This document shows, piece by piece, positions 6,490 to 18,364 of a stretch of DNA of 64,000 nt (positions are counted from its first letter, which is position 1; the number at the start of each line of letters is the position of its first letter). This stretch comes from an uncultured Maricaulis sp. (GTDB taxonomy: Bacteria; Pseudomonadota; Alphaproteobacteria; Caulobacterales; Maricaulaceae): positions 41,784-105,783 of the forward strand of contig NZ_CAJQOO010000011.1 in the NCBI RefSeq assembly GCF_905480005.1, in the 5' to 3' direction. The notes below the pieces were generated by a model. That model was not told where the DNA came from and did no database searches. It saw only the letters and a program-made list of their open reading frames with translations. The position numbers were made by a program, and so were the translations under genes.

Positions 6490-7653
6490 ATGCGTTTCAT
6501 TCTGGCTGTTTGCGTCGGCGTCCTGCTCGTCGCTGTGGGGTTTGTCTTCTTCATTCTACCGGCCCGGATCGATGCCGACATGAATGTCGTCACACCCCAC
6601 GAACCCTATGGTCTGACCGCTGAGGCCGAGGCGCTGCACGGCACGCTCCGGGTCGGCGATCTACACTCCGACATGCTGTTGTGGATGCGCGATCCGACCC
6701 GATGGAATGGTCGGGGTCATACCGATCTGCCGCGCCTTCGGGCCGGGCAGGTCGCCTTCCAGGTCTTCTCCAGCGTGACAAAGACGCCCTCTGGCCAGAA
6801 TTACGATAGCAACACCGCCGACAGTGACGACATCACGGCGCTCGCCATCGTCCAGCGTTGGCCGATGCGGACCTGGGATTCGATCCTGGAACGCGCGGTC
6901 TATCATGCCGATCGGCTGAACCGCCTGGCAGAGCGCGATGACAGCTTCACCGTGGTGCGGACCCGGGCCGATCTCGAAGCGGTCCTGGCGGCGCGCGAAA
7001 CCGATCCGGCCGCGATGGCGGGCCTGCTTGAAACCGAGGGAGCCCATCCGCTTGAGGGGGAAATCGGGAATGTTGATGTGCTCTGGGATGCCGGCTATCG
7101 CATGCTCGGCCTGCAGCATTTCTTCGACAATGCGCTCGGCGGCTCCCTGCATGGTGTATCCAATGACGGGCTGACCGATTTTGGGCGCGAGGTCATTCAC
7201 CGCATGGATGAGCGTGGCCTCATCATTGATGTTGCCCACTCGTCCCCGCAAGTCGTCGAGGATGTGCTGGCCATGACGGACAGCCCCCTCGTGGTGTCCC
7301 ATACGGGCGTGCACGGCCACTGCGCAGTGAAGCGGAATATTCCCGACGCGCTCATGCAGCGGATTGCAGCCGGCGGCGGCCTGATCGGGATCGGCTTCTG
7401 GGCCGATGTCACCTGTGATGACAGCCCCGAAGGCGTGGCGGCGACATTGCTGGCCGCGATCGATCTGGTGGGTATCGACCATGTCGCGCTCGGCTCCGAC
7501 TATGACGGAACGGTCACGACGACATTTGACGCCTCTGAATATGCCGTGCTCACCGACCGGCTGCTCGCTGCCGGTCTGGGCGAGGACGAGGTGCGCCAGG
7601 TGATGGGCGAGAACATGATCCGCTTCTTTCTCGAGAATCTGCCGGCGGAATAG
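6490..7653 (+). CDS. Membrane dipeptidase (peptidase M19, renal dipeptidase family)
   Basis: This 387-aa protein starts with a hydrophobic signal/anchor segment (ILAVCVGVLLVAVGFVFFI), which places the enzyme in the periplasm or at the membrane. Zinc and active-site motifs of family M19 are present: VGDLHSDMLLW (His-x-Asp), LETEGAHPLEG (Glu), VSHTGVHGHCAVKRNIPD (His and Arg) and LGSDYDG (Asp). The length matches the family. It would hydrolyse dipeptides, often with D-residues or dehydro residues tolerated. The ATG at 6490 follows gaggtg with normal spacing. It converges on leuB with a 46-base gap containing a short tandem repeat. Confidence 0.94.
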   Translation: MRFILAVCVGVLLVAVGFVFFILPARIDADMNVVTPHEPYGLTAEAEALHGTLRVGDLHSDMLLWMRDPTRWNGRGHTDLPRLRAGQVAFQVFSSVTKTPSGQNYDSNTADSDDITALAIVQRWPMRTWDSILERAVYHADRLNRLAERDDSFTVVRTRADLEAVLAARETDPAAMAGLLETEGAHPLEGEIGNVDVLWDAGYRMLGLQHFFDNALGGSLHGVSNDGLTDFGREVIHRMDERGLIIDVAHSSPQVVEDVLAMTDSPLVVSHTGVHGHCAVKRNIPDALMQRIAAGGGLIGIGFWADVTCDDSPEGVAATLLAAIDLVGIDHVALGSDYDGTVTTTFDASEYAVLTDRLLAAGLGEDEVRQVMGENMIRFFLENLPAE

Positions 7654-7695
7654 GCGCTGCCCAAACAGGCGCTGACCGAACAGGCGCTGGTGGCG
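7651..7695. repeat. Three 15-bp imperfect tandem repeats between dipeptidase and leuB
   Basis: The units taggcgctgcccaaa, caggcgctgaccgaa and caggcgctggtggcg follow each other with a 15-bp period and share the core aggcgctg. The first includes the dipeptidase stop codon. The period is a multiple of three, so slippage would not shift a frame read through it. A low-copy minisatellite is the simplest reading. Confidence 0.75.
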
Positions 7696-7715
7696 GCGGC
7701 TATTCCGCCGCCACC
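7689..7715. repeat. 11-bp inverted repeat over the leuB stop codon
   Basis: ggtggcggcgg and ccgccgccacc are perfect complements around a 5-base loop (ctatt) that holds the leuB stop. No U-tract follows on either strand, so it is not a canonical terminator. It could block 3' exonucleases or act as a weak bidirectional barrier between the convergent dipeptidase and leuB transcripts. Confidence 0.65.
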
Positions 7716-8761
7716 GCCTCGGCCTCGAGGCGTTCAACCAGTTTGACCCCGGCCTGCGAGCAGCTGAGCGTTCCGCCCAGATCACCGGTCCATTCGCCGG
7801 CTTCATGCATCGCATTGACCGCGTCTCTAAGTCGTTTTGCGGCAGCGTTTTCGTCGAGGCTTTCCAGCAATTGTGCGGCGGCTTCGATGGCCCCGAACGG
7901 GTTGGCCTTGTCCTGGCCGGCAATGTCCGGCGCGGAGCCGTGGATGGGCTCGAACAGGCCCGGCTTGCTGTCGCCCAGCGACGCCGATCCCAGCAGTCCG
8001 ATCGAACCGGGCAGCATGGAGGCCTCGTCGGAGAGAATATCGCCGAACATGTTTTCGGTGACGATCACATCGAAGCTCGCCGGTGCGCGCAGCATGTGCA
8101 TGGCGGCGGCGTCGACATACATGTGGTCGAGCGCGACATCCGGAAAATCGCGGGCGCCCATCTCGCTGACGACATCGCGCCAGAGACGGCTGGTTTCCAG
8201 CACATTGGCCTTGTCGACCGAGGTCAGCTTGCCGCGGCGCAGTCGGGCCTGCTGAAAGGCGATGCGCGCCACCCGCTCAATCTCGCTGCGTGAATAGGTG
8301 CATTTATCGCTGGCTGTGTCGGCGGTCCGTTCACGTTCGCCGAAATAGATGCCACCGGTCAATTCGCGCACGATCAGCACATCCGTGCCCGCGACGAGGT
8401 CCGGGCGCAGGGGTGATTTTCCGGCCAGAGCCGGATGCACGGCGGCCGGACGCAGATTGGCATAGACGCCCAGCGCCTTGCGCAGGGACAGAAGGCCGGC
8501 TTCCGGCCGGGCGTCGGCCCGATCCCATTTCGGCCCCCCCACCGCGCCAAGAAAAACCGCATCGGCCGCCCGGCAGGCCGAAAGCGTCTGGTCTGTCAGC
8601 GGCTCCCCGAATGCATCGATGGAGGCACCGCCAAAGGCACAGGTCTCAAACTCGATTCGGAAGCCTTCCAGCGCGGCGACATGTTCGAGCACGGCGCGGG
8701 CGACTGCGGTGATTTCCGGTCCGATCCCGTCACCGGGCAGGAGGGTGATGCGATAGTTCAT
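7700..8761 (-). CDS. leuB: 3-isopropylmalate dehydrogenase
   Basis: This 353-aa member of the isocitrate/isopropylmalate dehydrogenase family catalyses NAD-dependent oxidative decarboxylation of 3-isopropylmalate to 2-oxoisocaproate in leucine synthesis. Visible signatures are LLPGDGIGPEI at the N-terminus, AVGGPKWD, the substrate loop RELTGGIYFGER, and the metal/cofactor region NMFGDILSDEASMLPGSIGLLGSASLG with PIHGSAPDIAG. Its ATG overlaps the leuD stop by 4 bases. It is the last gene of the nine-gene ilv/leu operon. Length is normal for the family. Confidence 0.97.
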   Translation of the reverse strand: MNYRITLLPGDGIGPEITAVARAVLEHVAALEGFRIEFETCAFGGASIDAFGEPLTDQTLSACRAADAVFLGAVGGPKWDRADARPEAGLLSLRKALGVYANLRPAAVHPALAGKSPLRPDLVAGTDVLIVRELTGGIYFGERERTADTASDKCTYSRSEIERVARIAFQQARLRRGKLTSVDKANVLETSRLWRDVVSEMGARDFPDVALDHMYVDAAAMHMLRAPASFDVIVTENMFGDILSDEASMLPGSIGLLGSASLGDSKPGLFEPIHGSAPDIAGQDKANPFGAIEAAAQLLESLDENAAAKRLRDAVNAMHEAGEWTGDLGGTLSCSQAGVKLVERLEAEAVAAE

Positions 8762-18156: not shown

Positions 18157-18203
18157 ACACAAAAAAACCCCGCTCCGGGTTCCGGGAGCGGGGTTTTTTG
18201 TGT
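18157..18203 (-). terminator. Attenuator terminator upstream of ilvD
   Basis: Read on the minus strand, ccccgctcc and ggagcgggg form a perfect 9-bp stem with an 8-base loop. It is followed by a run of seven T and flanked by A/T pairs that extend the helix (aaaaaa / tttttt). It lies 24 bases beyond the leader peptide stop and 21 bases before the ilvD ATG, the classical attenuator position. The A-tract on the other side means it could also stop transcription in the + direction. Confidence 0.92.
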
Positions 18204-18330
18204 CTGCCGGTTGGCGAGGTCTCTCGTCAGGCAGGCGCGCTTACCGCTCCCGTTATGGTCGGGATAATAAGTACAAGTACGAGAAGGAGTAGGCCGAGCG
18301 CGTTCACCCGCTCGCCCGTCAGGGCAGCGG
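18183..18330 (-). promoter_or_regulatory. ilv/leu attenuator RNA: protector, antiterminator and terminator strands
   Basis: Four complementary segments can be placed on the minus strand. Strand 1 is ccgctgccc (18330-18322), inside the leader ORF. Strand 2 is cgggagcgg (18252-18244), just after the Ile codons. Strand 3 is ccgctcccg (18191-18183), the left arm of the terminator. Strand 4 is the right arm (18176-18168). Strands 2 and 3 are perfect 9-base complements, forming the antiterminator. Strands 1 and 2 pair over eight bases with one bulge, forming the protector. Strands 3 and 4 form the terminator. A ribosome stalled on the Leu/Val codons would cover strand 1 and free strand 2 to pair with strand 3, allowing read-through into ilvD. 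Confidence 0.88.
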
Positions 18331-18364
18331 CCGGGGCAACCGGCAGAGCGTACGCATTGATCAT
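18227..18364 (-). CDS. Branched-chain leader peptide for ilv/leu operon attenuation
   Basis: This 45-codon ORF, too short for the track, encodes [21 protein letters not shown] followed by [20 protein letters not shown]. Residues 25-34 are ten consecutive branched-chain amino acids (5 Leu, 2 Val and 2 Ile plus one further Leu), and Leu23 and Ile37 flank them. The run uses CTA and GTA, which are probably rare in such a GC-rich genome. ggaaag lies 8 bases before the ATG. A shorter GTG start at codon 20 is possible and would leave the Leu/Val/Ile run intact. The stop at 18227 is followed at once by the attenuator. It is analogous to E. coli IlvL/LeuL but has no obvious sequence kinship outside the run. 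It acts in cis by ribosome stalling and not as a protein. Confidence 0.9.

Follow-up and report, generated by a model that had tools for sequence, protein, structure and literature searches.

A Putative Branched-Chain Amino Acid Attenuator Upstream of a Joint ilv-leu Operon in Maricaulis

Introduction

Attenuation of transcription through a translated leader is an established mechanism for the ilv and leu operons of enteric bacteria. In E. coli, the leaders of ilvGMEDA and leuABCD encode a peptide rich in the regulating amino acids and form protector, antiterminator, and terminator structures. The two operons are separate, each with its own leader, in contrast to Maricaulis, where a single leader precedes a joint ilv-leu operon. 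A comparative study from 2004 reportedly dealt with proteobacterial attenuators.

The closest described system comes from the same order. The attenuator of Caulobacter crescentus ilvBN (ilvIH), as described in the part of PMC4117421 that cites Tarleton et al. (1994), combines tandem branched-chain codons with an intrinsic terminator, and stalling relieves termination. Likened to this description, the Maricaulis leader shares the tandem branched-chain codons and the terminator. According to the same text, the Caulobacter attenuator precedes acetolactate synthase genes, whereas the Maricaulis one lies in front of nine ilv and leu genes, with ilvD at the head of the operon.

Here, we analyze this leader, located in a 64-kb stretch of an uncultured Maricaulis sp. 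genome (hereafter, the window). In all likelihood, it is a ribosome-mediated transcription attenuator of the nine-gene operon. Judged from sequence, it is a well-conserved new instance of a mechanism long known and with a precedent in the same order. No Rfam family scored above its gathering threshold, the best being Thr_leader (RF00506; 27.3 bits versus 55), and a literature search, with most subscription journals outside its scope, found no paper naming both Maricaulis and an attenuator. This well-supported control element, with no Rfam match at threshold, would govern nearly the whole branched-chain pathway of this alphaproteobacterium in one transcript; its points of interest are the wide span of the operon and the persistence of the leader through operon rearrangement.

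The Operon and Its Leader

NCBIfam models identified ilvD, ilvC, the acetolactate synthase large subunit, an ACT-domain small subunit, leuA, ilvE, leuC, leuD, and leuB (Table 1), with the small subunit (ilvM-like) scoring below its family cut-offs. Intergenic gaps are short or overlapping throughout, except at the uncertain starts of the large subunit and leuC. A search within 7400-7760 found no terminator 3′ of leuB, and the genome (94% complete) contains no other acetolactate synthase or isopropylmalate synthase with comparable similarity. The earlier note had the leader governing all nine ilv and leu genes, which fits the nine tightly spaced genes behind it but does not extend to threonine deaminase (ilvA); this gene is found on a different contig, placing the first step of isoleucine synthesis outside the leader's control. 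Separately, a short ORF with FPLISIITVIAPSGA is found ~290-375 nt upstream of the ilvA match (L111), with branched-chain residues at 6 of 10 positions, possibly by chance.

Table 1. Positions of leader, operon, and upstream features in the window, with the loci carrying the leader before leuA.
Feature	Position or locus	Strand	Remark
Conserved block upstream of leader ORF: GGGTTGCC, 16 nt, GTCACGTTGCACCGCAATAG	18428-18385	minus	Alignment
Leader peptide ORF	18364-18227	minus	45 codons, ATG start, TGA stop 18229-18227
Upstream hairpin inside leader ORF, CCGCUGCCC-UGAC-GGGCGAGCGG	18330-18308	minus	Covariation; includes the earlier "strand 1"
Control codons, ten consecutive Leu/Val/Ile	18292-18263	minus	Leader ORF codons 25-34
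Proposed strand 1 (protector arm)	18264-18260	minus	UCCCG pairs with CGGGA 18252-18248; candidate
Strand 2a, antiterminator 5′ arm, CGGGAGCGG	18252-18244	minus	Covariation in 19-sequence alignment
Strand 2b (CTGCC), inner antiterminator helix	18234-18230	minus	Overlaps final sense codons
Strand 3b (GGCAG), pairs with strand 2b	18208-18204	minus	
Intrinsic terminator hairpin (3:4) and T run	18199-18162	minus	99% of cells paired, 19 relatives
Strand 3, terminator left arm	18193-18183	minus	18191-18183 doubles as antiterminator 3′ arm
ilvD, first structural gene	18135-16414	minus	NCBIfam
ilvC, ilvG, ilvM-like, leuA, ilvE, leuC, leuD, leuB (this order)	16417-7700	minus	Tightly spaced or overlapping
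Leader-before-leuA loci	L073, L075, L079-L081, L088, L089, L091, L096, L098, L100, L101, L103-L105, L107-L109		

The minus-strand ORF of 45 codons with ten branched-chain codons in a row, CTA and GTA included, is present as first read (CTA CTC CTT CTC GTA CTT GTA CTT ATT ATC). In all six frames of the window, this is the only run of at least nine Leu/Ile/Val residues, and 20 shuffled windows contained none. The run is enriched in codons that are rare in the 15 ORFs of the window from which the codon usage table was built, where CTA accounts for 1.3% of Leu, GTA for 1.5% of Val, and CTT for 6.3% of Leu codons (P about 1e-5 under the window's own usage). Random control windows were drawn from related loci, leaving out the true leader sites: among 4000, a single window contained a short ORF having 8 or more branched-chain residues out of 10, and in no window was such an ORF accompanied by a terminator.

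Downstream of the ORF, the strong T-run terminator reported shortly before ilvD is borne out, its hairpin lying 27 nt from the stop codon, and the folding of the 210-nt leader reaches z = -4.8. Strand 2a is, as had been claimed, a perfect 9-base complement of the terminator left arm (at 18191-18183), although it starts 10 nt past the last Ile codon and not directly after it. The antiterminator uses the left arm of the terminator and is mutually exclusive with it. Strands 2b and 3b form a second short antiterminator helix that was absent from the first reading. A long helix between 18346-18337 and 18213-18204, suggested by the single-sequence fold, was rejected as not conserved: 62.6% of cells were paired, with no clear excess over shuffles.

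Conservation among Relatives

We aligned 19 sequences, namely, 17 genomes of a Maricaulis-like genus (the window's own counted) and two other genera of the family; two more genomes of the genus lacked a full-length ilvD match and were uninformative. The closest named IlvD belongs to a Maricaulis sp. genome, at 91% identity. The leader peptide and both alternative pairings, at similar spacing, are found upstream of ilvD in 19/19 relatives, and peptide, antiterminator, and terminator are conserved with compensatory changes, the test that the earlier note itself had named. For the two antiterminator helices taken together (2a:3 and 2b:3b), 97% of cells are paired, against 50% or less when the arms are slid, and two-sided changes occur at three pairs, a score reached by none of 500 shuffles. 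Within the genus, 2a:3 hardly varies, and covariation at this level therefore rests on few sequences. The 2b:3b helix (96% of cells paired) is also nearly invariant, and its support is thus conservation, not covariation. In the same alignment, the terminator has one pair with two-sided changes.

The aligned sequences are related and their cells non-independent, which makes the matching of arms across families the stronger argument. The pairing arms of other Caulobacterales, of Parvularculaceae, and of gammaproteobacterial Lysobacterales are unlike those of Maricaulis yet match each other, having changed in concert (e.g., CGGGAGCGG with CCGCTCCCG, GGCGCGGGG with CCCCGCGCC, and TCAGGTGCGGG with CCCGCACCTGA). 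Altogether, 83 loci, including the 19 aligned, have a candidate leader upstream of ilvD, among them Hyphomonadaceae, Parvularcula, and Brevundimonas, as well as the Gammaproteobacteria Lysobacter and Luteimonas. An ORF together with a terminator of -12 kcal/mol or lower was found at 73 of these loci, 52 of which also have an antiterminator complement at p <= 0.05 versus shuffles. The conservation of the attenuator parts, with compensatory changes in relatives, strongly supports the attenuation reading.

Proposed Mechanism of Attenuation

To the observed anatomy, conservation, covariation, spacing, and codon bias, the attenuation model would add translation of the ORF, ribosome stalling, a change in read-through, and a role for a 1:2 hairpin. 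Very probably, the leader is an RNA switch that turns the operon off when leucine, isoleucine, and valine are plentiful. The predicted reaction can be divided into three steps. (i) Transcription of the leader: RNA polymerase would be followed by a ribosome translating the peptide ORF. (ii) Read-through: if the supply of charged Leu, Val, or Ile tRNA runs low, the ribosome would stall within the ten-codon run and leave strand 2a free, allowing 2a:3 and 2b:3b to form the antiterminator ahead of strand 4 synthesis, and polymerase would read on into ilvD-ilvC-ilvG-ilvM-leuA-ilvE-leuC-leuD-leuB. (iii) Termination: when the amino acids are plentiful, the ribosome would reach the stop codon and occupy 2b along with the margin of 2a, leaving strand 3 free to form the 3:4 terminator, and transcription would stop before ilvD.

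The spacing is consistent with these steps. With 13 nt assumed for the ribosome footprint, counted from the A site, a stall on the last Ile codon (18265) exposes the RNA starting at 18252, exactly where strand 2a begins, and a ribosome at the stop codon covers 2b. For a transcript ending at strand 3, the computed probability of 2a:3 is 0.97-0.98 with a stall at any of the ten codons. At computed equilibrium, the full-length leader always adopts the terminator. The switch must thus be kinetic and dependent on folding during transcription, as known attenuators likewise are.

Upstream Control and the Protector Arm

A block ~20-65 nt 5′ of the leader ORF carries a TTGC-ACC-GCAA dyad, of which TTGC is invariant in the 19 relatives, a comparison made within the family. 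It is probably a promoter or an operator/regulator site. A promoter scan found no sigma-70 consensus, and the 26 nt between the terminator stem and the ilvD start codon are insufficient for a separate complete promoter. The strongly conserved block with its dyad, just 5′ of the ORF, would suit a DNA-binding regulator acting as the main control, with the attenuator minor or idle in Maricaulis sp. We consider this unlikely: the block may merely be the promoter, and the leader parts are kept across two classes, which argues for their being in use.

Within the attenuation model, the protector arm is weakly determined. The complete protector, antiterminator, and terminator logic claimed by the earlier note holds, as sequence logic, for the latter two and is not supported for its strand 1 at 18330-18322, which pairs with strand 2 imperfectly, in 8 pairs with one mismatch. 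Attenuation with this segment as the protector of strand 2 would fit the 84.9% of cells that are paired, above slid positions, and the four such pairs in the consensus fold. It is nonetheless quite improbable, because shuffles pair equally well and none of the pairs shows a two-sided change in the 19-sequence alignment. Moreover, these bases instead pair locally with 18317-18308, in a hairpin that has two-sided changes at four pairs and keeps 82% of cells paired (32-50% at slid positions). This upstream hairpin, 5′ of the control codons, is possibly a polymerase pause hairpin.

A nearer segment, 18264-18260, adjoins strand 2 and is a better, though unproven, candidate for strand 1. Most Maricaulis relatives retain a local hairpin into strand 2 despite a differing left arm, and a hairpin of this type (18264-18260:18252-18248) beats 90% of shuffles in 20/59 leaders, including most Maricaulis ones. 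Without a ribosome, the computed probability of 2a:3 at the strand-3 stage is still 0.62. On both counts, the 1:2 hairpin is weak and the protector step uncertain. In the attenuation model, 18264-18260 would lie under a ribosome that stalls late in the run, and the weak local hairpin may favor termination once a ribosome has moved past or when translation is absent.

In relatives, the leader peptide diverges freely outside the run, and the run itself varies in length and order with the frame kept. The hydrophobic run and the maintained frame could also describe a small membrane peptide that has a function of its own, followed by its plain terminator, a reading that is very improbable given the free divergence of the other residues, the changing run, the rare codons, and a terminator-arm complement that changes in step with the arm.

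Leaders of Permuted Operons

The leaders of Lysobacterales (i.e., Lysobacter, Luteimonas, Dyella, and Rhodanobacter) have a similar run (LVLVLIT..GAG) and the same parts as the Maricaulis leader, and differ in arm sequences and gene order, with Lysobacter being ilvD-first and Dyella and Rhodanobacter leuA-first. Dyella, Rhodanobacter, Luteibacter, and relatives share the order leuA-ilvE-leuC-leuD-leuB-ilvD-ilvC, and in these permuted operons the leader, terminator, and antiterminator are found upstream of leuA instead (Table 1). We tentatively suggest that a single type of leader, having a two-part antiterminator and a run ending near LIT..GA, could have stayed 5′ of a reordered branched-chain operon in two classes, the switch belonging to the front of the operon rather than to any particular gene. 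The likeness across the two classes may, instead, reflect convergence and not common descent. The ilvD-first and leuA-first operons provide a natural series for tracing attenuator evolution.
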